Shown here in pieces: positions 1 to 16,322 of a stretch of DNA of 64,000 bases. Under the pieces are notes generated by a model. That model was not told the DNA's origin. It saw nothing but the letters and a program-made list of their open reading frames with translations, and did no database searches. Position 1 is the first letter of the stretch. Each line of letters opens with the position of its first letter. The stretch covers positions 124,001 to 188,000 of the forward strand of contig JAACJG010000004.1 in the NCBI GenBank assembly GCA_009917695.1, in the 5' to 3' direction. A program made the position numbers and the translations under genes. Source of the stretch: Candidatus Rifleibacterium amylolyticum (GTDB lineage Bacteria > Muiribacteriota > Ozemobacteria > Ozemobacterales > Ozemobacteraceae).

Positions 1-2505
1 CCCAAGGGCATAATGCTCAGCCATAAGGCATTCATTGCATCGATAGAACTTGGTCTGAAGATTTCAGATTACCATCGCGATGACCGCATGCTGACTCTGC
101 TGCCCTTTACCCACGTTTTTTCACTCGTCGATGCCGGCCTGGTCATGCTTGGCTGTCATTCGACGCTGGTCGTCTGCAACAGTTTCAATCCGGCAGAGAT
201 CATTCCGGTAATGATGAAGTATCGAATTACTTATGTCATGGCAGTGCCTCGCCTCGCCGATCTTTTCGCTTTCGGGCTCATGCAGAAGCCTGAGCTCAAG
301 TTTGCTGGCATTACCATGATCATTGGCGGCGCGGCGCCGCGCGCCCAGGTCATGCAACTGCTTAATTCTCGTGGAATAAGAACTTTTCAGGGATTCGGCA
401 TGACCGAAACCGCGGCCGGCGTGTTGATTGGCCATAACTGTCCTCTTGAAGCCGTCGGAAAGGCCCAGCATGGCGTGAAGGTTATGATCGACAAGCCGGT
501 TAATGGAGTCGGCGAGCTGTTGATAGCGACTCCGACAATTTTTTCAGGCGTTTTCGGGCAGCCGGAGCTAGATCAGGAAATGTTTACCGGTGAATTCTTC
601 AAGACCGGCGATATCGCCCAGATCGACAAAGAGGGTTTTGTTTACATTCGCGGCCGCGCCAAAGAGGTGATCATCTCGGCTTCTGGTTTGAACGTTTATC
701 CTGATGAGCTTGAACTGAGACTGGGAACTCTTCCATATGCCGAAGAATTTGTAGTATTCGGTCTCTGCGAAGCCGGTCTTGAGATTCCAGCCCTCGCCAT
801 GCTTGGGCGAAACGAGTTTTTTAAGGATTACAGCGTCGGCAAAGAACAGGAATACGTAGAAGACGACATTCGCAAACGAGTTGCCGAATGGCCGGAAGCC
901 GAACGTATTCGAAAGGTGTTCATTGTTGATAAACCGCTGCCCCGTTCAGCCAGCGCCAAAATCAAGCGCTTCGAAGTAGCGGCGATGTTCAGCCCGGAAG
1001 CTGCCACGAAGAACCGGCAGGCCGAGCGCTCTACGCCAGCGGCTAAAGCTGCTGATAACAGGGAAACCATCGATGCCTTCGTACATGAAGTTGCTGCATT
1101 TCTTAATGTAGATCCTGATAAATTCGAGCTTACCAGTCGTCTCGACTCTTTTATGCAGCTTGATTCGCTGGGCGTGATCGCGATGCTGATCAAGCTTGAA
1201 CAGCGTTTCAGTGTGTCGTTTCGCGAGTTGATCGGCACTTCGATCGAAACTTTCGAAGAGCTTTATAAGTTTTTTGCCGACCAGGCAAGCCCTGAGAATA
1301 TCGAAAAAGCTGCAAATGGCACTTCTCCGGTTCCGGGTTTGCCGCCGCTGCTCGACTTTTCACCGGTTGCTCTTGAACAACGCCAGAAATTCGTGCGCGA
1401 ACAGTCCGGGTTTAACGATTTTAACCTGCCGGTACCGCAAGATCCGGCAGCGTTCACAGGCAATATCGAGGGGTTTACCGGCTTTGTTCAGGTGCCGGTC
1501 GGTCTCTGTGGTCCGCTCAAGGTTCTCGGTACCTACGCCGAGGGCGAATTCTTCGTGCCGATGGCGACGACTGAAGGCGCGCTGGTTTCTTCAGTATCGC
1601 GTGGTTGCCAGGTAATCACACTGTCAGGTGGCGCTCAGGTGCGCATGGTCGATGAAGGCGTTGTTCGCACGCCGGTGTTTGTGCTCAAAGACCTCGAACA
1701 GCTAGAAAAATTCAGCACCTGGGTCAGCGATAACTTTGCCAAAATCGCGCGCTCGGCCGAGAGCACCACCAGTCACGGCAAACTCAAGGCGATCGAGCCC
1801 TTTCCGATCGGCAGCACGATGGTTTTACGCTTCAACTACTCGACAGGCGATGCGTCCGGTCAGAACATGACCACTATCGCTACACGCAACGCTGTCGATT
1901 ATATTCTCGAAAATTACCCTGGCAAGATCAGAGAGTGGTTTCTTGAATCGAATCTGTCGGGAGACAAAAAGATCAATGCGGTCAACTTTACCCGCACTCG
2001 TGGTAAAAAGCTGGTTGCGCAGTGTCTTATTCCTGCCCGCATCGTTGAAAGCATGCTGCATTCGACGCCGCAGCAGATGTGTCGTCTGGCTGAGCTGGCC
2101 ATGGTGACCTCGATGCAGGCCCACTCATTCGGTATGCAGGCGCATTACGCCAACACTCTGGCTGCCGTCTATATTGCGGCCGGTCAGGACCCAGCCTGTG
2201 TCGCCGAGTCTGCTGCCGGTATCACCAGTTTGCAGCTTGTCGATGGCGATCTGCAGATCAGCGTCACGCTGCCGGGTATCATGGTCGGAACTGTCGGCGG
2301 TGGCACCCGCCTGCCGACGCAGAATCACTGCCTGCACATGATGGGCTGCGCCGGCGCCGGCAAAGCCGGAAAATTCGCCGAAATTCTCGCCGCTGCGGTT
2401 CTTGCCGGTGAAATCTCGATCATCGGTGCCATGGCTTCAGATGAGTTTACCCAGGCCCATGCTCGTTACGGTCGTTCAGGTGGCCTGAAGGGCAAAGGGG
2501 CATAA
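1..2505 (+). CDS. Acyl/aryl-CoA synthetase - acyl carrier protein - HMG-CoA reductase fusion (5' partial)
   Basis: The reading frame is open from base 1 and its first residues, PKGIMLSHK, are the core of the AMP-binding signature. The gene therefore starts left of the window and the ATG at 13 is internal. Three modules follow. The rest of an adenylate-forming enzyme carries GFGMTE, KTGD, GRAKEVI and the terminal lysine region SASAKIKR (to about nt 1000). A carrier domain has LDSLG with the phosphopantetheine serine at 1165-1167. A class I-type HMG-CoA reductase domain starts near nt 1450 and keeps all four catalytic positions: Glu in MATTEG (nt 1573), Lys in GDKK (1966), Asp in GQD (2188) and a C-terminal His (2458), plus the nucleotide loop GDASGQN. 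The usual ENVIG substrate loop reads EGFTG. Known chemistry suggests acid activation, tethering to the carrier and NAD(P)H reduction of the thioester. The substrate is unknown. The formyltransferase follows after one base. Confidence 0.85.
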   Translation, partial: PKGIMLSHKAFIASIELGLKISDYHRDDRMLTLLPFTHVFSLVDAGLVMLGCHSTLVVCNSFNPAEIIPVMMKYRITYVMAVPRLADLFAFGLMQKPELKFAGITMIIGGAAPRAQVMQLLNSRGIRTFQGFGMTETAAGVLIGHNCPLEAVGKAQHGVKVMIDKPVNGVGELLIATPTIFSGVFGQPELDQEMFTGEFFKTGDIAQIDKEGFVYIRGRAKEVIISASGLNVYPDELELRLGTLPYAEEFVVFGLCEAGLEIPALAMLGRNEFFKDYSVGKEQEYVEDDIRKRVAEWPEAERIRKVFIVDKPLPRSASAKIKRFEVAAMFSPEAATKNRQAERSTPAAKAADNRETIDAFVHEVAAFLNVDPDKFELTSRLDSFMQLDSLGVIAMLIKLEQRFSVSFRELIGTSIETFEELYKFFADQASPENIEKAANGTSPVPGLPPLLDFSPVALEQRQKFVREQSGFNDFNLPVPQDPAAFTGNIEGFTGFVQVPVGLCGPLKVLGTYAEGEFFVPMATTEGALVSSVSRGCQVITLSGGAQVRMVDEGVVRTPVFVLKDLEQLEKFSTWVSDNFAKIARSAESTTSHGKLKAIEPFPIGSTMVLRFNYSTGDASGQNMTTIATRNAVDYILENYPGKIREWFLESNLSGDKKINAVNFTRTRGKKLVAQCLIPARIVESMLHSTPQQMCRLAELAMVTSMQAHSFGMQAHYANTLAAVYIAAGQDPACVAESAAGITSLQLVDGDLQISVTLPGIMVGTVGGGTRLPTQNHCLHMMGCAGAGKAGKFAEILAAAVLAGEISIIGAMASDEFTQAHARYGRSGGLKGKGA

Positions 2506-2506
2506 C

Positions 2507-3265
2507 ATGAAAGTTATATATGTGACATCAGATGTTACCTATGTAAAAGACAACTATCTGTCGCTGGTCGATCGCGTCACCGACCCGGCCAATCTGCCGG
2601 CAGGAGTCGAAGTTGCCGCCGTGATAATACTGAAAGTGCCCGAAAAGCTGCTGCTGAAAAACATCATCGGTTTGCAGCTGATCGGCGCGCCACGCTTCAG
2701 TTTCGCTTTGCTGCGCAACATGATGCAGTCGCGCATCAATGATCCGCGCGTCAAAGTGCTCGAAGAACGTGGAATCAAAATCTTTCGCTGTTCAAGCGTC
2801 AATCAGCCGGCAGCTCTACAGTTCATCAGCGATCTTAAGCCTGATCTGATGGTCAACATGCGCACCCGCAATATTTATAAAAAACCGGTGCTGGATCTGC
2901 CAAAGATCGGATGCATCAACATTCATCACGGTCTGCTGCCCGATAATCGTGGCACCATGTGTGACCTCTGGGCCTGGATCGAAGGCCGCCCGGTCGGCTT
3001 TTCAATCCACTGGATGAACGAAAAGATCGACGACGGCGATATAATCGACCGCTGCGAGGTTGACGTTAAGGGCTGTCGCTCTTATATCGAGATTCCCTAC
3101 AGGTCAAGCCAGGTTGAAGCTGATTGCCTGCTGCGCAATCTCGCCCGCATAAAGCGCGAAGGCCACTTCGTCGGCATTCCGAACCGTACCGAGAATATCA
3201 ATTACACACGCACGCCGTCGCCGGCAAAGCTGCTGGAAATCCGCCGCCGCGGACTGAAGTTGTAA
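2507..3265 (+). CDS. Formyltransferase family protein (Fmt/PurN-like fold)
   Basis: The 252-residue protein has the N10-formyltetrahydrofolate transferase core. Around residues 136-180 it shows INIHHGLLP, RGTMCDLWA, and IDDGDII, supplying the Asn, His and Asp of the family's catalytic triad. The usual HPSLLP is HHGLLP here. It lacks the C-terminal tRNA-binding domain of methionyl-tRNA formyltransferase, so it more likely formylates an amine on a small molecule or sugar. The ATG follows the stop of the synthetase-reductase fusion by one base, with an AAAGGGGC-like ribosome site inside the upstream gene, which indicates translational coupling and a shared pathway. The acceptor substrate cannot be read from the sequence. 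Confidence 0.8.
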   Translation: MKVIYVTSDVTYVKDNYLSLVDRVTDPANLPAGVEVAAVIILKVPEKLLLKNIIGLQLIGAPRFSFALLRNMMQSRINDPRVKVLEERGIKIFRCSSVNQPAALQFISDLKPDLMVNMRTRNIYKKPVLDLPKIGCINIHHGLLPDNRGTMCDLWAWIEGRPVGFSIHWMNEKIDDGDIIDRCEVDVKGCRSYIEIPYRSSQVEADCLLRNLARIKREGHFVGIPNRTENINYTRTPSPAKLLEIRRRGLKL

Positions 3266-4011: not shown

Positions 4012-5409
4012 TCAATGTTCCGCGTTTTTTGCCTGTTGCACAGAATAAACTCGAAAGCGTGAGGCAATTCCCTTCAGCTCCTCATCACGATGCTTGATTT
4101 TGCATTTTTGTCGTTTAAGAAGCGGCCTTATAGTTTCGTCTTCATACACTGCCCCTGAAATCAGTATTTCGTGTTCGCTGCTCTTCGACTGAACGCGGGC
4201 GGCAATGTTTACGGTTCTGCCGAAAAAATCGAGACTTCGATTGCTGGTAACAGTGATTGCCGGGCCGCGATGCAGTCCGATTTTTACTTCGACATCCTGA
4301 AGCTTGTTCTCCTGATTGAGGCGCCAGAACTCTTTCTGAATCTTCAGCGCCGCCGCCACCGCTTCTGCATTAACAGAAAAAGAAGCCATGACAGCATCTC
4401 CGATAGTTTTTACAATGCCGCCATTATATTCTTTTATGATCTCTGTCATTACGTCAAAGTGCTTCTGAACCAGAGAATACGCAGCGCTGTCGCCAAGTCG
4501 TTCGTACATCGCGGTAGAGCCTTTTATGTCGGTAAACATCAGCGTGATGCTTTTAACCGCAAACGATACATCTTCGCGCAAGAATTCTCCGGCAAAGAGA
4601 TCCTTAAAATCCTGCAGACCTGTTATATAGGATGCACTGACAAAATTATGTACCGGTTTGCGGGGCAGTATCAGAAACCCGTTCATGCCTTCAAACTCGG
4701 CTTTTACGCTGAATTCGACGCGCCCCTGCTTCAGAATCAGATTTTTCTGATCAGGTTCGCTTTTTTTGTTAAAAGTCAGGCTCACCTTTTGTACAGAAGG
4801 TGAAAGCTCATCTAGAACAGTTATTGTGCCAGAATTTTCAAGAAAGGAGGGAAGATGGAAAATGTATTCGCCTGGCAGAAAGTCGCCGGCAGCCTTTGTG
4901 GTCTTGCCGCCATAGATGCAGCAACCAACGGTAAACCTGCGCTTTTCCCGCTCCAGTATGGCATCGAGAAATTGCATTTTTCCCTGAAAATCGAGTTCGC
5001 TCCAGCATTTATAATCAATCTTACGAATATTGGGATTGACCGTGAAGGTCACCTCAACCTGATCAGAAAAATCGAGCTGCCAGTCTATTTCACATAGAGC
5101 GCAATGTGCCTTTTGCTGCAGACCCATCAGGTGCTTGTGAAACACCGGTATTCCCTTGCATGAAGGACAATGAATATCCCAGTTAAGATCCATGATACCA
5201 AGGCGAGCGGCATACAAAAATCCCTGTATGGCTTCGGCTCTGCTTATTCCAGACTGTTCAGCCACCCTGAAAACGTTGATCTTGTAACAGTCAAAGTCAT
5301 TACCGTCAGTGATCAGATTTTTTATGATTTCAAAAGTCGCAGCGGAACATTTGGAGTTATTCAGCTCAGTCAGCAGCTTTTGAGCGGTTCTGGAAATCTT
5401 GTATTTCAT
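4012..5409 (-). CDS. Class III adenylate/guanylate cyclase with N-terminal winged-helix-like and zinc-binding region
   Basis: The C-terminal ~190 residues form a class III nucleotide cyclase. LMFTDIKGST (residue ~290) gives the first metal-binding Asp, KTIGDAVMASF gives the second, and the substrate/transition-state region lies around GRTVNIAARVQ. The N-terminal third looks like a helical DNA-binding-type segment followed by two CxxC pairs (CPSCKG and CALCE), probably a zinc ribbon. The middle is a DUF5939-like region. No membrane segment is evident, so it is probably cytoplasmic. The ribosome site GAGG precedes the ATG by eight bases. The product (cAMP or cGMP) cannot be told by eye. It stands alone on the minus strand within the lipid/export region. 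Confidence 0.85.
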   Translation of the reverse strand: MKYKISRTAQKLLTELNNSKCSAATFEIIKNLITDGNDFDCYKINVFRVAEQSGISRAEAIQGFLYAARLGIMDLNWDIHCPSCKGIPVFHKHLMGLQQKAHCALCEIDWQLDFSDQVEVTFTVNPNIRKIDYKCWSELDFQGKMQFLDAILEREKRRFTVGCCIYGGKTTKAAGDFLPGEYIFHLPSFLENSGTITVLDELSPSVQKVSLTFNKKSEPDQKNLILKQGRVEFSVKAEFEGMNGFLILPRKPVHNFVSASYITGLQDFKDLFAGEFLREDVSFAVKSITLMFTDIKGSTAMYERLGDSAAYSLVQKHFDVMTEIIKEYNGGIVKTIGDAVMASFSVNAEAVAAALKIQKEFWRLNQENKLQDVEVKIGLHRGPAITVTSNRSLDFFGRTVNIAARVQSKSSEHEILISGAVYEDETIRPLLKRQKCKIKHRDEELKGIASRFRVYSVQQAKNAEH

Positions 5410-5624: not shown

Positions 5625-6350
5625 ATGAGCGATAAAGAATATGAAAAATATCTCAATGAGGTCAGAGAGCGTCTGGCCGCTTATCCGAATGTTAAGCCCG
5701 GCAATCATTACAATTCTCCTACTCCGACACTAGGTCTGTCTGTGCCTCAATCAAGGGCTGCGCTCAAGGCCGGCTACAACTTCCTGAAACTGCCTGCCGA
5801 AAAAGTTCTGCAGGCTTTCGATCACATCTGGTTCAATGCCGTATTTTTTGAGGAAATGAGTCAGTCGATTTATTATTACGAAAAGAAATCGCTTTCCCAA
5901 GACCAGTTCAGAGCCATTTCGCGCTGGATCGACCGTTGTGACAACTGGGCGCACAGCGACGGGCTTTCTTCTATTTATGCTCTGGCTCTCGAAGAAAATC
6001 CCGACCTTGTTCTGCCGGTTCTGCAAAACTGGAACAGCTCTGACAACCCCTGGAAACGCCGCCAGTCTGTAGTCAGCCTGCTGTATTACTCCCGGGCCCG
6101 CAAGAAGGTGCAGCCTTTTGAGGTCATGATCGGACTGGTGCAAGCTTTGCTGCGCGATAATGACTATTACGTCCAGAAGGGTGTGGGCTGGACATTGCGC
6201 GAACTCTACAACCGTTATCAGGAAAGAACTCTCAGATTTATCAGCGATAACGTAAATGTCATTTCGCCCGCCGCCTGGCAGGCCACTACTGAAAAGCTGT
6301 CAGTCTCGACAAAAAAACAGCTGCTTGAACAGAGGCGCGGCAACAGATAG
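5625..6350 (+). CDS. AlkD-like DNA alkylation repair protein (HEAT-like repeats)
   Basis: The 241-residue all-helical protein matches the DNA alkylation repair family. IDRCDNWAHSDGLS (about residues 103-116) corresponds to the family's NWDLCDS motif with its catalytic Asp. NPWKRRQSVVSL and VQKGVGWTLRE match the conserved helices that bind the DNA backbone. Family members excise N3- and N7-alkylated purines as monofunctional glycosylases. The ATG has a GGAG site about ten bases upstream. No functional link with the neighbouring lipid genes is apparent. Confidence 0.8.
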   Translation: MSDKEYEKYLNEVRERLAAYPNVKPGNHYNSPTPTLGLSVPQSRAALKAGYNFLKLPAEKVLQAFDHIWFNAVFFEEMSQSIYYYEKKSLSQDQFRAISRWIDRCDNWAHSDGLSSIYALALEENPDLVLPVLQNWNSSDNPWKRRQSVVSLLYYSRARKKVQPFEVMIGLVQALLRDNDYYVQKGVGWTLRELYNRYQERTLRFISDNVNVISPAAWQATTEKLSVSTKKQLLEQRRGNR

Positions 6351-6590: not shown

Positions 6591-7511
6591 ATGGCATTTG
6601 TCAGAAGATGGTGGCAGTTCCTTAAGGAACGCCACGAGCCTTTCAGCATTACTTTGATGGTCGCTATTTTCTTTGCGGCCGTCGCCTTTGTCGCCTATCA
6701 GCCAGGGGTACACGCGCCACCATGCTGGAAGCGTCTGGCCGCAGGTTTTGCGATTGTCTGGTTGATATTTTTGCACATGCGCATGTTTGACGAAGTCAAA
6801 GACTATGATGTCGATCGTGAACACAACCCGGAACGCCCGCTGGCACGAGGTTTGATCAGCGTTGGTGAATTCTCGGCGATGACCATGCTGGTGCTCGCGG
6901 TCGAGATTGGGCTGGCTGGCATCATGCGATGGCCGATGTTGCCGGCTTATATGATGGTTCTCTGCTTCACTCTGCTGATGCGCATGGAATTCTTCGTCGG
7001 TGACTGGATGCGCCCGAAGCTCGAACTCTATGCGATTACCCATACCTTTTCGGCAGCCATGATCAGCATGCTGATTCACAGCATTGTCTGTTTTTCTGAT
7101 TTTGCCGGCGCCGACCGCGGTATGCTGCTTTATGCACTCGGAAACTGGTTCGTTTTCAATGTTTTCGAATTCGGCCGCAAAACCTTTGCCGTCGAAGAAG
7201 AGCGCGAAGGCGTCGAATCGTATTCGAACCGGCTCAAACCAATTGGCGCAGTTCTTCTGCTGCTGGTCAACATTGCACTGGCCTATGCCGCTTTTTATTA
7301 TGTTGCAGTCAGCAAGTTTACAGCTGTTGCCGACTGGCGACTGCTGGCTCCGGCCGGCGCGGTTTCGCTGCTGGTCGCTGTAATAGGCCTGATTTACGCG
7401 GCAAAGCCGGTTCTGGCTAACGCAAAGCTGTATCGCGGCGTCGTGACCTTGTATCTGCTGGCTTATCCGGCAACAATAGCCGGAGCAGTCTATCTGCTGG
7501 TTTATCGATAA
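6591..7511 (+). CDS. UbiA-like prenyltransferase (integral membrane)
   Basis: A polytopic membrane protein of 306 residues with about eight hydrophobic segments. After the second segment it shows FDEVKDYDVDREHNPERPLARG, matching the first Asp-rich prenyl-diphosphate-binding motif and the RP signature of the UbiA superfamily. The second Asp-rich motif is not clear: the matching loop contains GRKTFAVEEEREG, with Glu in place of most Asp. Family members transfer a prenyl group to an aromatic or lipid acceptor at the membrane. A strong AGGAGG ribosome site precedes the ATG. It leads a co-directional run with the swivel kinase, the RND exporter and the BtaA-like transferase, so it probably modifies the same product. 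Confidence 0.75.
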   Translation: MAFVRRWWQFLKERHEPFSITLMVAIFFAAVAFVAYQPGVHAPPCWKRLAAGFAIVWLIFLHMRMFDEVKDYDVDREHNPERPLARGLISVGEFSAMTMLVLAVEIGLAGIMRWPMLPAYMMVLCFTLLMRMEFFVGDWMRPKLELYAITHTFSAAMISMLIHSIVCFSDFAGADRGMLLYALGNWFVFNVFEFGRKTFAVEEEREGVESYSNRLKPIGAVLLLLVNIALAYAAFYYVAVSKFTAVADWRLLAPAGAVSLLVAVIGLIYAAKPVLANAKLYRGVVTLYLLAYPATIAGAVYLLVYR

Positions 7512-7548: not shown

Positions 7549-10308
7549 ATGTATATTGTTACCAACGAAAACCGCAATTTCGATCAGGTTCTGCCACTGG
7601 TTGGCGGAAAAGGCGGCAATCTGCTCAAACTTACTGCTGCTGGCGCCGATGTTCCGGCCTTTGTCGTGCTCAAGAAAAACTGTTTCGACGAATTCATCGG
7701 TTCTTTTCGTGGCGAATTCAACAAGTGTCTCAAGGCGCTTGACTGCTCGACTCCAGAGAGTATCGCGAGAACTGCCGGCGCTCTGCGCAACTGCATGTTG
7801 ACGCACCCGATTCCGGATCGCATCAAAAACGATCTGTTCAGCACACTGAAAAAGCAGCTGCCGGAAGGAACTTTCGTAGCCGTGCGCTCTTCGGCACTGG
7901 GTGAAGATTCCAAAGAGTTTTCCTATGCCGGAATGCTCGATACCTGCCTGTTCAGGCGCAGCGAAGCCGAAATCTGTGAGGCCGTAGTGACCTGCTGGTC
8001 TTCGATTTATTCCGATCGCGCTGTTGCCTATCGCAATATGCGCAACATCGCCCAGGATACTGTCTCGATGGCTGTCGTCGTGCAGGAAATGATCGATGGT
8101 GTCGCGTCCGGCGTCACTTTCACTGTAAATCCGACGACCCGCTACGAAGACGAGATGCTCATTACCTCTGTTTTCGGTCTTGGTGAGGGACTTGTCTCCG
8201 GAACGCTCGATTCTGACCAGTTCATATGCCTCAAGAAAGATGTTTACCCGGTCGTCGAAAAGCAGCTGGCCAACAAAGTCGAAAAGCTGGTTTTCGATCG
8301 CGAAAAGAATTACGGCACAATCACGGTCGAAGTGCCCGCCGAAGAAGCCAAAAAGTCGAGTCTGAGCGAAGCACAGCTGCGTGCCATCTCAACTGTCTGC
8401 CATCGCATCGAAGGCAGCTACAACAAGGTTCCGCAGGATATCGAATGGACGATCGACTCGGCTGGCCGCGTGCGCATTCTGCAGGCCCGCCCGATCACGA
8501 CAATAGACCGGCCGATTCCCTCTGAACGCGGCTACAGCACAATATGGGATAACTCGAACATTGTCGAGAGCTACTCAGGCGTGACTACGCCTTTGACGTT
8601 TTCATTCGCCATCTATGCCTATCACCGAGTCTACGTGCAGTTTTGCCAGGTTCTCATGGTACCAGAAGAAGAGATTCAGGAAAATGATTACGCCTTCGCT
8701 AATATGCTTGGCTTCTTGAACGGCCGCATCTATTATAACCTCAAGAACTGGTACCGCCTGATCTCTGTACTGCCGGGATACAGCTACAACAGCCGCTTCA
8801 TGGAAGGCATGATGGGTGTCAAGGTCAGCTACGACAAGTCGGTCAAACAGAAGAAGGTAGGTTTTTTCAGCAAGTATTTCGTAGAACTGCCTCGCCTGGC
8901 GCTGGTTGGGGCCAATCTTGCCTATCGTTTCTGGCGTACTGACACAGAAGTAAAGCGCTTCATGGATGTTTATCAGGCCATGTACAACAAATACAAGGAC
9001 TTTGATTTCAATGCGGCACCGGCACATAAGCTCATCGATATATTCAACGAGCTCGATAACACCGTGCTGGCACACTGGAAAGCCCCTATCATCAACGACT
9101 TCATGGCGATGATTTTTTACGGTGTGCTCGACGCGCTTATGAAAAAATGGGATCTCAACGCTGACCCGGCGCTCAAAAACGACCTTCTCGCCGGTCAGGG
9201 CAATGTCGAAAGTACTCTGCCATTGCGCAATATCCAGAAAATAGCGCGTTTCGTCGCTGCTGACAGCGAACTCAAAGAGCTGTTCAAGACCAGGCCTGCG
9301 GCCGAACTTAAAGATATGTTCATTCCGGTGCCGGGCACCGACCGGCCGGCGGGGCACCAGCAGCTGGGCAGCCAGATTGCTGAATACCTCGAAAAGTTTG
9401 GCTATCGCGCCATGTGTGAGCTCAAGCTCGAAGAACCCTCGATGAACGAGCGCCCCGAATTTTTGTTCGACATGATCAAGAACTATGCGGCCGCGCCGAT
9501 GCCGGTTGAAGAAGATATCGGCGAAAAAGAACGCCAGGTGCGTGAGGTTGCTGAACGCAAGGTTCGCGAAGTTCTGGGTGATCAGAAGATTTTCGGCCTG
9601 ATCAAAAAGATCGATGTGCTGATGTTCGTCGCCAACTGGGCCAAAAAAGCGATGGCGGTGCGCGAATACCAGCGTTTCGCCAGAACCCGCATGTATGGTT
9701 TGATGAGCCGTATATACAAGGCTTTCGGTCTGCGTTTCGTCGAACGTGGTGTGCTCGACAAGGTCGATGATATCTTCTATCTGACCATGCAGGAAACTCT
9801 CGAATACGTCAGCGGCACCGCCCGCAGCCAGAAGCTGCGTGAGCTCTCAGCCCTGCGCCGCGCTGAATTCGACGAATACCGCGCTATGGATGAGCTGCCC
9901 GACCGCATTGAAACCACCGGTATCACCTACTGCAACGACCTTACCCGCGGCATGCTGCCAACTAATGTCGAAGACGATGATCCCGATATTATTCGCGGCA
10001 TTGGTGGCTGTTCCGGTAAGGTTACCGGTAAGGTCAAGGTTATTCTCAATCCGAGCGACGATATGTCACTCAATGGCGAAATACTCGTGGCCGCCCGCAC
10101 AGATCCGGGCTGGGTGCCGTTGTTTGCCACTGCTTCTGCTCTGCTGATCGAACGCGGCAGCATGTTGTCGCACTCGGTCATAGTTGCGCGCGAACTCGGT
10201 CTGCCGGCTGTCGTTGGCGCTACCGGCGTGACTAAAAAGGTCAAGACTGGCGATGTGGTTGAGCTCGATGGCACGACCGGCATCGTCAAGGTCATTTCAA
10301 GAGCATGA
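7549..10308 (+). CDS. PEP synthase/rifampicin phosphotransferase-like dikinase
   Basis: A 919-residue protein. An N-terminal ATP-grasp domain opens with VGGKGGNLLKL and contains AVRSSALGEDS and QEMIDGVASGV. A large central helical region of about 450 residues matches no motif I know. The C-terminal swivel domain includes GSMLSHSVIVARELGLPAVVG-type sequence, with the phosphocarrier His near residue 875. The pyruvate/PEP-binding barrel of true PEP synthase is absent. The order ATP-grasp, acceptor domain, swivel domain is that of rifampicin phosphotransferase, which moves the beta-phosphate of ATP to a small-molecule hydroxyl. The acceptor here is unknown; a pathway alcohol is an attractive inference. 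The end overlaps the exporter start by four bases (ATGA). Confidence 0.8.
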   Translation: MYIVTNENRNFDQVLPLVGGKGGNLLKLTAAGADVPAFVVLKKNCFDEFIGSFRGEFNKCLKALDCSTPESIARTAGALRNCMLTHPIPDRIKNDLFSTLKKQLPEGTFVAVRSSALGEDSKEFSYAGMLDTCLFRRSEAEICEAVVTCWSSIYSDRAVAYRNMRNIAQDTVSMAVVVQEMIDGVASGVTFTVNPTTRYEDEMLITSVFGLGEGLVSGTLDSDQFICLKKDVYPVVEKQLANKVEKLVFDREKNYGTITVEVPAEEAKKSSLSEAQLRAISTVCHRIEGSYNKVPQDIEWTIDSAGRVRILQARPITTIDRPIPSERGYSTIWDNSNIVESYSGVTTPLTFSFAIYAYHRVYVQFCQVLMVPEEEIQENDYAFANMLGFLNGRIYYNLKNWYRLISVLPGYSYNSRFMEGMMGVKVSYDKSVKQKKVGFFSKYFVELPRLALVGANLAYRFWRTDTEVKRFMDVYQAMYNKYKDFDFNAAPAHKLIDIFNELDNTVLAHWKAPIINDFMAMIFYGVLDALMKKWDLNADPALKNDLLAGQGNVESTLPLRNIQKIARFVAADSELKELFKTRPAAELKDMFIPVPGTDRPAGHQQLGSQIAEYLEKFGYRAMCELKLEEPSMNERPEFLFDMIKNYAAAPMPVEEDIGEKERQVREVAERKVREVLGDQKIFGLIKKIDVLMFVANWAKKAMAVREYQRFARTRMYGLMSRIYKAFGLRFVERGVLDKVDDIFYLTMQETLEYVSGTARSQKLRELSALRRAEFDEYRAMDELPDRIETTGITYCNDLTRGMLPTNVEDDDPDIIRGIGGCSGKVTGKVKVILNPSDDMSLNGEILVAARTDPGWVPLFATASALLIERGSMLSHSVIVARELGLPAVVGATGVTKKVKTGDVVELDGTTGIVKVISRA

Positions 10309-12698
10309 ACGAACAGCAAAACAGCACGCAACCGCAACCACGAAAGCGCTTCGCCGACCAGCAGTTCAGGGCAGCGGCACGTTTTATCGTGCGCTACCGT
10401 CGCGCACTGGCTTTCCTGTTGATGATCGTCTGTGTTGGCGGGCTGTATTTCGCTCGCAATATCAACCTCGACAACAGCCTCGAACTCTGGTTTCTCGAAG
10501 ACGACCCGACACTGGCCGCCTACCGTGAATTCAAAGAAAAATACGGCAACGACGAGATAATTCTGGCAATGGTCGACTGCCGTAAAGATGGCATGTTTTC
10601 GCCGGCGATGCTGACCGCCCTCTATAAGGCTTCGAAAGCGATCGAGGATGATACCCTAAACTTTCGGCGTGTGTTGAGTGTCGGTTTATCGCCATACATC
10701 GGCCTTCATAACGACGAACTGATCATCGAAGACCTGATGGATGGCCCCGTAGAAACAGCCGAAGCGGCGGAGCGCATCAAGGCCCGCTTCATGGATGACC
10801 CGTTCAAACGCAAAATTCTACAGAATGCCAGTTCGACCTGGGCTATCATCATTGCCGAACCGGTTGCTACTCCTGATATGGACACCCGCCGCCCGCTGAT
10901 CATCGAATCGGTGCGCAAGAAACTCGCCGGTTTCGAATATCGACTGGCCGGTATGGGCGTGATGTACGATGAACTCAATCGGCTGAGCATTCTCGATGGC
11001 GGCGTTTTCAACGCGGTTGCCTACACGGTTATCGCGATACTTATTTTCGCGCTCTATCGTTCGTGGACGTTCCTGTTCATGGCGCTTGGCGCCATGCTGT
11101 TCAGCGGCCTGAGTTTTCTGGGTGCTTATGGTTTGTTCGGTCAGAACTTCAATATGGTAACCATCGTTCTGCCAACGCTGATGATGATACTTTCTATTTC
11201 TGACGTGGCCTATGTCTATAACAACTATTGTTTCAATTCAGAGCGCATCCGCAAAAATCGCGAAGAAGGTCTTGAACACGTCTTTAACGAAGTTCTCTCG
11301 CCCTGTCTGTTTACTTCACTGACCAATACCTGCGGCTTTTTTGCTTTGACCGCAAGCTCTTTGTCGGTTTTGCGCACATTCGGCTGGTTTGCCGGTTTTG
11401 CCAGTATGACTGAATATGTTGTTTCGATGATCGTCTCGGCCTATATTCTTGGCCGCGTCGAGCTCAAAGAAGACATTCAGATCAAACGCCCGATGGAAGG
11501 TCCGATAAACTGGTTGACGCGGCATATTCCCAGTTATTATCGTCAGATTTTACTGGCTTTCGCGATTGCTGCCGGTCTTGGCCTGTATGGCTTGTCGCAG
11601 CTTCACGTCGATACTTATTCTATGGGTTTTCTGCATGAGAAAAATCCGATAAGAGTAGACAGCGACAAGGTCGAAGAGGTTTATGGCAATTATCTGCCGC
11701 TCGAAGTCAGACTGCTGACGGGGCAGCGCAATGGTATTCTCACCGTCGATTTCATGCAGCGTCTGCAGAAGATGCACGATGATCTCGAGGCTATTCCCGG
11801 CTTCGAGAAGGCGGCCTCTATCGTCGATGTTTTCAAGAAGCTCAATCAGGTCTGGAGCGACGGCACCGAAGCGACTTACGTGGTGCCGGACAGCGACGCC
11901 AAAATCGCCCAGTTGATGATGCAGTATGAGTCTGACCCCGATAATGACCTGGTTTACATGACTGATAATCCCGATTATACGGAAGCACGCCTTACCGTGC
12001 GTGTGCCAATGCTGAGCGCAGCGGTGCTGCGTGATTACGAAGAGAAGGCAATGCAGGTGCTGCACAAGAACTTCGATGGGACCGGAGTGACCTGGAAATT
12101 CGGCGGCTATGTGCCGCTTTATGCGCGCATCATCAGTTACGTTACCTGGAGCCAGGTTTCGAGCTTCGCTCTCGCGTTCGTTTTTGTGTTTGGGGCTATT
12201 GCCATACTGTTCAGGCGCCTCAGCGCAATGATTCTGGTAATACTTCCCAATGTTTTCCCGATTCTGCTGACACTGGGCGTCATGGGCCTGACCGGCATCA
12301 GACTCGATATCGCCACGGTGACCATAGCCGCCATTGCTCTTGGTATCGTGGTTGACGACACCATTCATAGTTTGTATCAGTTGTATGACCCATCTCGTTC
12401 GCATATGTCGCCGACCGAGGCGATAATCGACGGCGTTAAAGAAGCCGGGCCGGCGATGTTTTCGACATCGATGATCTATGCCATCGGCTTTTTGTTCATG
12501 GTATTTGCCAGCATCAAGTCGATTCTCTATTTCGGCGTGCTGCTGTCGTTCACTATCTTTGTGGCGCTGCTTTGTGATCTTGTGTTTCTGCCGGCGCAGA
12601 TTTGTCTGCTGCGCCGTTTTCTGGCGAAAGATTTTCGTGGCGAAGACGAAACATCGGTTTCTGCAGTCGCCGGGAATGATGATTCAACCGTTAATTAA
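10305..12698 (+). CDS. MMPL/RND-family lipid exporter
   Basis: A 797-residue inner-membrane protein with two repeats. In each, one transmembrane helix is followed by a periplasmic loop and a block of five helices (about residues 230-370 and 620-770). Conserved polar residues include ISDVAYVYNNY in the first block and GIVVDDTIH in the second, the positions of the proton-relay Asp in MMPL and hopanoid-exporter proteins. It begins at an ATGA overlap with the swivel kinase gene, so the two are co-translated. With the LolA-like protein and the barrel downstream, it probably moves a lipid from the inner membrane towards the outer membrane. Confidence 0.85.
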   Translation: MNEQQNSTQPQPRKRFADQQFRAAARFIVRYRRALAFLLMIVCVGGLYFARNINLDNSLELWFLEDDPTLAAYREFKEKYGNDEIILAMVDCRKDGMFSPAMLTALYKASKAIEDDTLNFRRVLSVGLSPYIGLHNDELIIEDLMDGPVETAEAAERIKARFMDDPFKRKILQNASSTWAIIIAEPVATPDMDTRRPLIIESVRKKLAGFEYRLAGMGVMYDELNRLSILDGGVFNAVAYTVIAILIFALYRSWTFLFMALGAMLFSGLSFLGAYGLFGQNFNMVTIVLPTLMMILSISDVAYVYNNYCFNSERIRKNREEGLEHVFNEVLSPCLFTSLTNTCGFFALTASSLSVLRTFGWFAGFASMTEYVVSMIVSAYILGRVELKEDIQIKRPMEGPINWLTRHIPSYYRQILLAFAIAAGLGLYGLSQLHVDTYSMGFLHEKNPIRVDSDKVEEVYGNYLPLEVRLLTGQRNGILTVDFMQRLQKMHDDLEAIPGFEKAASIVDVFKKLNQVWSDGTEATYVVPDSDAKIAQLMMQYESDPDNDLVYMTDNPDYTEARLTVRVPMLSAAVLRDYEEKAMQVLHKNFDGTGVTWKFGGYVPLYARIISYVTWSQVSSFALAFVFVFGAIAILFRRLSAMILVILPNVFPILLTLGVMGLTGIRLDIATVTIAAIALGIVVDDTIHSLYQLYDPSRSHMSPTEAIIDGVKEAGPAMFSTSMIYAIGFLFMVFASIKSILYFGVLLSFTIFVALLCDLVFLPAQICLLRRFLAKDFRGEDETSVSAVAGNDDSTVN

Positions 12699-12713
12699 TC
12701 TGGAGGTTTGGTT

Positions 12714-13814
12714 ATGACCAAGAAACCCGCAGTCGTTTACAGCAATGTCTGGGAAGACCCCGAACTCAACCGTGTCTCGCTCAAGGTAGAACCCGGCCAG
12801 AACGTGCTTTCAATCACCTCTGGCGGTTGCAACTCTCTCTGTCTGCTGCTCGAAGACCCGGCAAAACTGATTTCGATCGACCTCAATCCGGCGCAGCTGG
12901 CAATGCTTGAATTCAAGCGTGCTGCGATCATGGAACTCGACTACGATGACTTCATCGAATCGATGGGCACTCCATTTCTGTTCAAGCAGGGCAAGCCGGC
13001 CGAATATCGCATTGAACTCTACAATCGCATCAAAAAGCATATGCCGGCTTATGCCGTGCAGTTCTGGGATGAAAACCAGCACCATATTCGCGATGGCATT
13101 ATGATGTGCGGCAAGGTCGAGAAATTTTTCAAGATTTATCGCACTTTGCTCGGATTCTTGTATTCTAAAGAAGATCTGATGAGCCTGTTCAAGGCAGAAA
13201 ATCTCGAAAAGCAGAGAGAAGCTTACGCCAGTTTCCACAAAAAGCGCTGGAATGCCCTGCATCGACTGTTATTGAATCGCTTCGTTCTAAGTCTGGTCAA
13301 AGGTGCTCATTCATTCGCTCAGGTTGATTTTGAAGACTTTGCCGGCAATCTCAATGTTAAACGTAGTCGCGGCATGACGCGCTTTTTCAACCCAGACAAC
13401 TATTTTATGTGTCTGCTGATGCTCGGCGCGCATTATCATGAGAAGGGCATGGCACCTTATCTGCTGCGCGAGAACTACCCGAAGCTCAAGGCCAACATCG
13501 ATCGTCTTGAGATCTTCATGGGCACTATCGGCGATGTGCTGAAAAAGGATGGCCCGGGCAGTTACGATCGTTTTAATCTTTCAAACATCTTTGAATGGAT
13601 GACCAACGAAGTTTTCAACGGCATCGTGCGCGAAGTCCTTGAACTGGCCCGACCCGGTTCACGCATGGCCTGGCGCTACACCTTCGCCCGCCCGCGCGAA
13701 CTCGACGCCGAGAACCTCAGCAAACTGGTCTACGAACCCGAACTCTCTGAACAGCTGTTTAATCAGGATCGCGCCTTCATCTACGAGAGCTTCCACGTCT
13801 ACCACCTCAAATAG
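12714..13814 (+). CDS. BtaA-like S-adenosylmethionine 3-amino-3-carboxypropyl transferase (DUF3419)
   Basis: The 366-residue protein has the DUF3419 pattern: YSNVWEDPELN near the N-terminus, then VLSITSGGCNSLCLLL and ISIDLNPAQLAMLEFK, which form the S-adenosylmethionine site. BtaA, the best-known member, transfers the 3-amino-3-carboxypropyl group of SAM to diacylglycerol in the first step of betaine-lipid synthesis. No BtaB-like N-methyltransferase is nearby, so the product may not be a standard betaine lipid. I chose the ATG at 12714, seven bases after CTGGAGG, over an in-frame TTG at 12708 that would leave no room for a ribosome site. It lies 15 bases after the exporter. Confidence 0.8.
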   Translation: MTKKPAVVYSNVWEDPELNRVSLKVEPGQNVLSITSGGCNSLCLLLEDPAKLISIDLNPAQLAMLEFKRAAIMELDYDDFIESMGTPFLFKQGKPAEYRIELYNRIKKHMPAYAVQFWDENQHHIRDGIMMCGKVEKFFKIYRTLLGFLYSKEDLMSLFKAENLEKQREAYASFHKKRWNALHRLLLNRFVLSLVKGAHSFAQVDFEDFAGNLNVKRSRGMTRFFNPDNYFMCLLMLGAHYHEKGMAPYLLRENYPKLKANIDRLEIFMGTIGDVLKKDGPGSYDRFNLSNIFEWMTNEVFNGIVREVLELARPGSRMAWRYTFARPRELDAENLSKLVYEPELSEQLFNQDRAFIYESFHVYHLK

Positions 13815-13907: not shown

Positions 13908-13938
13908 TATAGTAGTAGCACTATAAGTGGAGGCGTTT

Positions 13939-14709
13939 ATGCAAAAACAGAAGTTGTTCCTTGCTCTGATAGTGATAATTCTGGCTGGTGCCGGCGCGGC
14001 TATGGCCCTGACCGCCCAGGAAGTCCTGCAGAAGGTCGAAGACCGCTACATCGGCAATACTTCAAAGGCCAATGTGCAGATGGATATAGTCGATAAAAGC
14101 GGCAATGTGCGCGAGCGCAAGATGACAATCTCGCGCCGCAAGGCCGATGCAAACAACAAAGATAACTTTATACATTTTGTTGCGCCGCCAGATATACGCA
14201 ATACGACCTATCTGGTAAACGAAAAGAACCGCGATCGCCAGAAATGGATTTATCTTTCGGCATTCAAGAAAACCCGCAAGATCGTTGCCGAAGATTATGG
14301 TCTGGCATTCGTTTCCAGCGATTTCACCTACGAGAACATGGATGAGATAAGAGCTGACGACTATGTAGCCAGCGACCTCAAAGAAGAAAAATACAACGGT
14401 ATGGATGTTTACACCTTCACCGCTGTTAAGAAAGACCAGAACACCAGCTATTCGAAGATAGTGCTGAAGGTCTGCAAGAACTCATTCACCATTCTGCATA
14501 CCGACATGTACGACAAGAAAGACCCCGAAAAGCTCATCAAGGTCATGACCGCCGAAGACCTTGAAACTATTCAAGACATAGTCACTCCCAAAAAAGTCAC
14601 CATGAAAGATCTCAGCAAAGGCACTCACACCGTGTTGACAACCGCCAAGATCGTTTATGATCTGCCACTGCCAGACGAAGAATTCTCACAGCGCAACATG
14701 GAAAAATAA
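13939..14709 (+). CDS. LolA-like outer-membrane lipoprotein-sorting protein
   Basis: A 256-residue protein with a cleavable signal peptide (MQKQKLFLALIVIILAGAG, likely cut near AMA-LT). The mature region has the LolA-like half-barrel pattern: LTAQEVLQKVEDRY, FIHFVAPPDIRNTTYLV, RQKWIYLSAFKKTRKI and FVSSDFTYENM. This is the larger variety that is usually encoded with MMPL/RND transporters rather than classic LolA. It should carry a hydrophobic cargo across the periplasm. The ATG at 13939 follows GTGGAGG; an in-frame GTG at 13927 lies inside that ribosome site and was rejected. A terminator follows at 14740-14771. Confidence 0.8.
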   Translation: MQKQKLFLALIVIILAGAGAAMALTAQEVLQKVEDRYIGNTSKANVQMDIVDKSGNVRERKMTISRRKADANNKDNFIHFVAPPDIRNTTYLVNEKNRDRQKWIYLSAFKKTRKIVAEDYGLAFVSSDFTYENMDEIRADDYVASDLKEEKYNGMDVYTFTAVKKDQNTSYSKIVLKVCKNSFTILHTDMYDKKDPEKLIKVMTAEDLETIQDIVTPKKVTMKDLSKGTHTVLTTAKIVYDLPLPDEEFSQRNMEK

Positions 14710-15023: not shown

Positions 15024-16322
15024 ATGAACAGGTTTATGCGCCGGGCTGGGCTTTTACCAGCTCTGGCTGTTGTGCTTTTGCTGGTTTTTGCCAATCGCTG
15101 TTCGGCTGATGACTGGGGCGACTGGGGCAGTGAAACGACAACATCGGGACCGGTAATCAAGCGTCCGTTCATTTCAGGCTGGTGGAACTGGCAATACAAT
15201 GAGTTTTCTTCGTTTGACCAGGGCCGCCTCAACTTCGAGCGCGAACTCGATAAACAGCGCAAGATAGTTGCCGGCGTCAACTTCAACCACTACACCGAAG
15301 ACAACAACAAAAAATGGAAAGTCTATCCCGGCGAGAACTACTACTTCTTCAAAGCCGGCGATTTTGATTACAAGCTCGGCATGCTGATAGAGAACATCGG
15401 CAGCGGCGACAAGTTTTCGTTTGTCGATAAGATCAACTCGCGCTATTTCCATAACGGCCTGGCTAACGATTATGATCGCGACAAAAAGGAAGTGCCGGGC
15501 ATGCGCGCAACCTGGTACATTAACAAGAAACTGCGCTTTTCCGGGCATTATCTGCCATATTTCATGGCCAGTGAGTTCCCATCGATATTCAGCCGCTGGG
15601 CCTATGCCATTCACAAAACCATCGCCAAAGAGCTGCTGTTTAACGGCGCAACCTACAATGCGGCCGATGATGAGTCTTTCAATCCGCAGTTTCACCTGGA
15701 ATTCGCCATGACATTGCCGAAACTCGAAATGCGATTTCATTACCTGCGCATGCATGAGCGTCTGCCGGTGATCAGCCAGGACCGCCCCGGCGTATTCAAT
15801 GGAAGCTATCCGCTCGATGAGACCTTTGCCGTTAACGGCAATGTTACGGTTACCAGCGACCTGCTGCTGCGTTATGAACTGGCCTGGAGTCGTGATCGCA
15901 CCTGGTCTGCTTTTGAGAACGGCATAATCGGCCAGAAATTCGTCAGCGATCACATTGGCATGCTTGTTGGCAGCGACCGCAATCTGCCTCAGAATTTTTA
16001 CATAAATGTACAGGGAATGGTCTCTTATGTTCCTGACCTGCTGCATGCCACCCCGCTGCAGCTCGAACAGACAGAGTATCTCGGCTCTCTGCAGCTGCGC
16101 CAGAATTTTCGTCAGGATCGCCTGCAGATAGAATTCAATTCTCTGGCCAATTTTACTACCGGTGAATATGTGCTTAATCCCAAGATCATGCTGATTCAGT
16201 CAGATTATCTGACATTCGTGCTGGGATATCAGGCCAATGGTGCGGGTGCCGAGTCGCTCGGCCCAGTTGGACAGTTCTCCAAAAACAACACTGCCACCTT
16301 TGAAACGCGCGTAACCTTTTAA
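15024..16322 (+). CDS. Outer-membrane beta-barrel protein
   Basis: The 432-residue protein has a signal peptide (residues 1 to about 28, ending near NRCSA-DD). Its mature sequence alternates hydrophobic and aromatic residues in strand-like segments, and the chain ends with phenylalanine (FETRVTF), the usual outer-membrane barrel signal. It resembles the DUF1302-type barrels that accompany MMPL exporters and LolA-like proteins, though the family match is by context more than motif. It may form the outer-membrane step of the export route. The start is uncertain: no good ribosome site stands right before the ATG at 15024, and an ATG at 15036 is an alternative. It converges on mutM with four bases between them. 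Confidence 0.7.
   Translation: MNRFMRRAGLLPALAVVLLLVFANRCSADDWGDWGSETTTSGPVIKRPFISGWWNWQYNEFSSFDQGRLNFERELDKQRKIVAGVNFNHYTEDNNKKWKVYPGENYYFFKAGDFDYKLGMLIENIGSGDKFSFVDKINSRYFHNGLANDYDRDKKEVPGMRATWYINKKLRFSGHYLPYFMASEFPSIFSRWAYAIHKTIAKELLFNGATYNAADDESFNPQFHLEFAMTLPKLEMRFHYLRMHERLPVISQDRPGVFNGSYPLDETFAVNGNVTVTSDLLLRYELAWSRDRTWSAFENGIIGQKFVSDHIGMLVGSDRNLPQNFYINVQGMVSYVPDLLHATPLQLEQTEYLGSLQLRQNFRQDRLQIEFNSLANFTTGEYVLNPKIMLIQSDYLTFVLGYQANGAGAESLGPVGQFSKNNTATFETRVTF

Follow-up and report, generated by a model that had tools for sequence, protein, structure and literature searches.

PigC uses ATP to join two pyrrole compounds, and both PigC and RedH, which have the same architecture as rifampicin phosphotransferase (RPH), spend ATP on joining two molecules. 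The PigC assay described in one part of PMC10187637 includes ATP. RPH-type enzymes are portrayed in passages of PMC4844700 as a large and, in its substrates, mostly unexplored group whose members are often misannotated as phosphoenolpyruvate (PEP) synthase, and section 10 of that paper holds that distant RPH clades probably keep phosphotransfer, not substrate specificity. In the part of PMC12167813 that deals with them, the RPH relatives HpeHI, CreHI and PpsAB phosphorylate small hydroxyl compounds with formation of AMP, and HpeHI is homologous to the ATP-grasp domain and to the swivel and acceptor domains of RPH. Those systems consist of two proteins and are catabolic, whereas the enzyme analyzed here is one chain in a lipid-like cluster. 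Phosphorylation of small hydroxyls by RPH relatives is therefore already known (PMC12167813, same part); what is new is a subfamily signature, its partner genes and their spread over unrelated bacteria.

We analyzed a stretch of 64,000 nucleotides from Candidatus Rifleibacterium amylolyticum (contig JAACJG010000004.1; hereafter the window), which encodes the following dikinase and domains:

7549..10308, + strand: swivelling dikinase with RPH architecture, 919 aa, overlapping the following gene (RND/MMPL) by 4 bases
7594..8511, + strand: ATP-grasp domain, PPDK_N, residues 16-321 (Pfam E 6.3e-78); K21, R113, T132 and E299 align with RPH K22, R117, T136 and E297
8530..9963, + strand: central acceptor-type domain, residues 328-805 (modelled alone); E340 corresponds to RPH Q337, R705-E706 to R666-E667 and R709 to K670
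10075..10281, + strand: swivel phosphohistidine domain, PEP-utilizers, residues 843-911 (Pfam E 4.8e-23); H875 aligns with RPH H825

The reading frame opens with ATG and contains zero internal stops, and we regard it as a real conserved gene because orthologues with 54-94% identity, full or near-full length, occur across Riflebacteria. PPDK_N and PEP-utilizers are its only Pfam matches, with nothing between them, and by structural match the swivel domain reaches residue 917 of 919. An earlier, sequence-only reading had assigned this domain order to RPH rather than to PEP synthase; Pfam order and structural matches both agree, the phosphotransfer residues are intact, and a Pfam search of the 919-aa protein for a central PEP/pyruvate-binding domain returned no PEP-utilizers_C barrel. 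Its description of the central domain as unknown was too strong: the region is blank only in Pfam, an NCBIfam model spans residues 17-917, and the fold matches the acceptor domain of RPH.

Structure prediction yielded a whole-dikinase model with a mean pLDDT of 86.6, whose best structural match was RPH-Lm (PDB 5hv1/5fbs) at Z 36.4 over 817 aligned residues, with an rmsd of 16.8 that suggests differing domain placement. When the central 478 residues were modelled alone (pLDDT 86.3) and compared with RPH, as the sequence-only reading had proposed, they aligned with the acceptor domain at Z 24.4 and rmsd 3.6 over 396 residues with 14% identity; six RPH entries scored Z 17.4-24.4 in this search, followed by the best unrelated chain at Z 5.7. 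The modelled central domain has an RPH-like fold at very low sequence identity; the structural search placed no non-RPH family close to it, and other folds remain compatible. The ATP-grasp domain also matched HpeI (Z 31.4, rmsd 4.3, 309 aligned). The likeness to RPH-Lm thus covers the domain order, all three domain folds and the equivalents of K22, R117, T136, E297, R666, E667 and H825.

For the residue comparison we took the positions discussed for RPH in part of PMC4844700, with L. innocua RPH, which is one residue shorter, standing in for RPH-Lm in the numbering. Counts were made on 35 of 46 aligned rows, omitting five RPHs, one PigC, the C. difficile and Haladaptatus rows and the remote rows L082 (3596), L084 and L085. 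R113, E299, R705, E706 and H875 are invariant (35/35), and the Arg-Glu pair and phosphohistidine (R705, E706, H875) are present in all 46 rows. K21 is kept in all 31 rows that extend to this position, the sequence slices of L037, L058, L041 and L040 starting downstream of the Lys22 position, and T132 is Thr or Ser throughout the subfamily rows. RPH carries a Gln in block 1 and a Lys in block 9 (PMC4844700, within section 10), both missing from the dikinase, where Gln337 is replaced by Glu340 and Lys670 by Arg709 in 35/35 rows each. Including the three remote rows gives Glu at residue 340 in 36/38 and Asp in 2/38, and Arg at residue 709 in 37/38, with Lys in L084. As far as residues and fold tell, the dikinase appears to resemble RPH in mechanism, but it is not an RPH.

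Profile scores and phylogeny point the same way. The top dikinase profile was NCBIfam PRK06241.2-2, named phosphoenolpyruvate synthase, at 810.7 bits over residues 17-917, short of its cut-off of 883. This full-length match, together with the phosphotransfer residues, places the dikinase by sequence within the swivelling-dikinase (PRK06241-type) superfamily. After the PRK06241 models, the nearest named profiles were RedH (397.1 bits, residues 17-917, cut-off 1350) and PigC (348.9 bits, residues 17-915, cut-off 1300), each in a single stretch; RIF_Ptrans_rph (NCBIfam) reached 322.7 bits in two stretches (cut-off 999) and the PEP-synthase profile 308 bits (cut-off 739.75). Among the reference controls, two RPHs scored 1605 and 1423 bits on the RPH profile, and a PigC encoded beside a pigD-like gene scored 1565 bits on the PigC profile. 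A quick tree of the 46 rows united the five RPHs with the C. difficile and Haladaptatus proteins in one clade (SH-aLRT 100) and placed the window dikinase in a separate set of 29 rows (SH-aLRT 100) that have the motif D/S/G-N-x-N-x-x-E-S/G-Y/F in common. Because its scores lie under the cut-offs and its clade is separate, we assign the dikinase to a predicted subfamily of RPH-architecture enzymes other than RPH itself.

The same data allow a condensing role, since Glu and Arg at positions 340 and 709 are shared with the one PigC row and not with RPH, and since RedH and PigC are the nearest named profiles, both exceeding the RPH score and in one stretch rather than two. A PigC/RedH-like ligase would use the ATP phosphate to activate the oxygen of one partner and lose it on joining, so that no phosphorylated product would build up. 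We consider this doubtful: the dikinase scores are less than a third of the RedH and PigC cut-offs, against 1565 bits for the true PigC; in the tree the PigC row stands on the side of the RPHs, and its long branch makes the placement unsure; and a Pfam scan of ten window genes found none of the pyrrole pathway, the cluster being without prodiginine genes. Better supported, and in our view reasonably probable, is a new RPH-type swivelling-dikinase subfamily whose target is a hydroxyl of a lipid pathway, which the enzyme would either phosphorylate or phospho-activate; from the observed domain order, fold, residues, loss of contacts and gene context we infer the phosphotransfer reaction, which acceptor it serves, how the steps follow one another and what is made.

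The gene context on which the lipid assignment draws comprises the following neighbors, all inside 16.3 kb of the window:

13..2505, + strand: 3' part of a 1010-aa fusion of AMP-ligase, carrier domain and HMG-CoA-reductase-like domain, starting upstream of the window (L070:11473-14505)
2507..3265, + strand: formyltransferase-like protein with N138, H140 and D175
6591..7511, + strand: UbiA-like membrane protein that keeps the first motif, D-[ED]-x-K-D-x3-D, and has E-x-x-R-K in place of an aspartate-rich second motif
10305..12698, + strand: RND/MMPL (HpnN-like) exporter, adjoining the dikinase in many Riflebacteria loci
12708..13814, + strand: DUF3419 protein, BtaA-like, with a putative 3-amino-3-carboxypropyl transfer from SAM
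13927..14709, + strand: LolA_like protein of the outer-membrane lipoprotein-sorting family
15024..16322, + strand: conserved 432-aa protein with a signal-like start and no Pfam match

The gene at 6591-7511 had been read as a prenyltransferase beside the dikinase. Its UbiA-like character stands; the prenyltransferase label is less secure, with a Pfam UbiA score of 27.6 bits below the cut-off of 34.2 and a second motif that is not aspartate-rich. Canonical UbiA members have aspartates at the second-motif position. Within this family the first acidic motif (D67, D71, D75) is kept in all 42 rows with letters there and E-x-x-R-K is invariant in 43/43. DUF3419 includes BtaA, which moves 3-amino-3-carboxypropyl from SAM onto a lipid hydroxyl. 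The Asn-His-Asp set of the formyltransferase-like protein (N138, H140, D175) is kept in 14/14 homologues. The RND and LolA-like genes suggest that the lipid is exported, and the 432-aa protein may, as a guess, be an outer-membrane partner. Two further genes break up the window cluster, one for a nucleotide-cyclase-domain protein at 4012-5409 (- strand) and a DNA-alkylation-repair-like gene at 5625-6350 (+ strand); a search of the related locus L013 gave no match to either product.

To follow these partners across bacteria we used 57 loci picked by peptide patterns of the window dikinase, a non-random sample. The subfamily signature DN[SA]N-x-x-E[SG][YF] occurs in 38 of the 57; L026 ends ahead of the signature and was counted in neither group. 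A UbiA-like and/or DUF3419 gene lies within 12 kb in 36/38 signature loci (exceptions L043 and L047), compared with 0/18 other dikinase relatives. The partners recur in Riflebacteria, Hyphomonadaceae, Bartonella, Saprospiraceae, Chlorobiota and Verrucomicrobia, with low identity to the window genes and varying extras, and this conserved clustering in unrelated phyla lends support to the link that the sequence-only reading had drawn from the dikinase to the UbiA-like and reductase genes. Clusters in Hyphomonadaceae, Bartonella apihabitans (L045), Saprospiraceae (L033, L052) and Chlorobiota (L032) add genes for an HMG-CoA-reductase-like protein, a polyprenol-kinase-like membrane protein, a GNAT-like acyltransferase and an AMP-ligase, so that this extended cluster spans Alphaproteobacteria, Bacteroidota and Chlorobiota. 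On a Roseinatronobacter plasmid (L071, whose record begins just upstream of UbiA), UbiA, dikinase, DUF3419 and ligase genes occur with two uncharacterised proteins of extended-cluster families. The polyprenol-kinase-like label reflects the pattern D-x-x-A-x3-G-x3-[GY]...K-[ST]-x-x-G, which we take to be that of dolichol kinases, and one sub-cut-off CTP_transf_1 match; Pfam searches with four proteins of the family gave at best 16.8 bits (cut-off 24), and a PDB search with one gave 0 matches. The GNAT-like label reflects one marginal Pfam match and our reading of the sequences. The window genome has one polyprenol-kinase-like homologue, on contig C2 (E 2.6e-68), apart from the cluster genes.

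The clustering could also reflect shared horizontal transfer only, with a dikinase target unrelated to the neighbors. The dikinase is sometimes found apart from the reductase, and signature loci L043 and L047 have no partners. We find this account improbable, as the same partners recur across six groups at low identity and with differing extras, and one relative, in L082, is a dikinase-acyltransferase fusion. The fusion is a 1248-aa protein (L082:2462-6205, - strand; G012 contig C27) in whose frame a match to the cluster GNAT-like family also lies. It neighbors genes for a class III aminotransferase, a phosphatidylserine-decarboxylase-family protein, DUF3419, a UbiA-like protein, a 3-beta-HSD-like dehydrogenase and an AMP-ligase. 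This locus is a variant of the dikinase cluster.

Returning to a hydroxyl-directed dikinase in a lipid pathway, the enzyme probably phosphorylates a building block of the cluster's lipid. Its ATP-grasp domain would hand the beta-phosphate of ATP to His875, yielding AMP and Pi; the swivel domain would then carry the phosphohistidine to the central domain, and there Arg705-Glu706 may help move the phosphate onto the acceptor oxygen. The most likely acceptor is an intermediate of the surrounding pathway that carries a hydroxyl, and the pathway alcohol proposed in the sequence-only reading is plausible: the ligase-carrier-reductase fusion would produce an alcohol that the dikinase then phosphorylates. 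The UbiA-like protein could couple the lipid parts and the DUF3419 protein attach aminocarboxypropyl as head group; a formyl- or acyltransferase would cap the amine, and the RND/LolA-like set would carry the product out. More tentatively, the UbiA-like/dikinase/DUF3419 trio may, with a carrier-acyl reductase of HMG-CoA-reductase fold and a formyl- or acyltransferase, make, in several phyla, a class of amino-acid-headed lipid not yet described, in a pathway where the dikinase's phosphomonoester possibly replaces the diphosphate for the UbiA-like enzyme, with its basic pair at the second aspartate motif. The conserved partners point to a lipid pathway for which we found no published description: a literature search, with subscription journals and preprints mostly outside its coverage, returned no account of a UbiA-like/dikinase/DUF3419 lipid cluster. 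Signature and conserved partners, including those in the complete genome of Bartonella apihabitans, make the acceptor question directly testable.

The RPH fold and catalytic residues might also suggest an enzyme that inactivates rifamycin-type antibiotics. This is largely refuted and very improbable: most rifampicin contacts of RPH are lost, with Y351, T354, V368 and M673 replaced by A354, A357, Y396 and R712, the RPH-profile score of 323 bits falls far below both the cut-off and the two reference RPHs, and the biosynthetic gene context is conserved. The dikinase shares ATP-grasp and swivel domains with PEP synthase and PPDK, and its relatives are automatically annotated as PEP synthase after the top NCBIfam model, but that function is scarcely credible given the absent barrel, the C-terminal swivel domain, the PEP-synthase score of 308 bits against 739.75 and the misannotation of such enzymes that passages of PMC4844700 call common.

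The reductase-like domain of Riflebacteria forms the C-terminal part of a fusion, after an AMP-ligase and a carrier-like domain that has a weak Pfam match and an LDSL motif. The 36 genomes yielded 20 reductase matches. The open frame around the match measures 997-1160 codons in 18 cases and 927 codons in one; the remaining match, at a contig edge, sits in a frame of 531 codons. The window copy (13-2505 and upstream, L070:11473-14505) is the sole reductase of its family in its genome. The domain retains motifs that we take to hold the catalytic Glu, Lys and His. A role in the mevalonate pathway was judged unlikely because the host genome has IspG, a search of it found no HMG-CoA synthase, and no mevalonate kinase there exceeded the cut-off (best match 40 bits against 163). 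Since the catalytic motifs are kept and no mevalonate route is evident in the host, the fusion would instead reduce a carrier-bound acyl group to an alcohol. At the alignment position that we take to be human Ser684, Glu occurs in 27 of the 28 rows from the cluster or from Riflebacteria and Asp in the other, and the single mevalonate-operon control (L104) has Ser. The contrast is weak because Asp is also found here in a solitary Vibrio reductase whose displayed stretch contains no cluster of this kind. Further HMG-CoA-reductase-like genes lie on Vibrio, Alteromonas and Sinorhizobium replicons (L101:7803-9065, L102:7944-9110, L103:7890-9134); the stretches shown carry no other annotated mevalonate gene, one of these genes being near an AMP-ligase and an SDR and one in an acyl-CoA-carboxylase operon.

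Co-occurrence was examined in 36 Riflebacteria genomes, with a score of at least 500 bits counted as presence of the dikinase (in two genomes it is split over contigs). DUF3419 is found in 20/21 genomes with the dikinase and 3/15 without it (Fisher p 4.2e-6), and the reductase-like gene in 16/21 and 4/15 (p 0.006), p values that overstate independence because the genomes are related. Three dikinase genomes (G029, G033, G036) have no reductase-like gene, and in several Riflebacteria the fusion lies elsewhere in the genome from the dikinase. Several have two loci, one with the fusion and the formyltransferase-like gene, sometimes also UbiA, and another with the dikinase, RND exporter, DUF3419 and LolA-like genes.

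Two variants of the gene neighborhood were also seen. At L079:11262-14042, adjoining UbiA-like and dikinase genes, a 927-aa protein carries DUF3419 at its end, its first ~570 residues being without a Pfam match. Streptomyces dikinase relatives (L107:6848-9688, L109:6733-9420) lie beside AfsA-like and isoprenylcysteine-methyltransferase-like genes.
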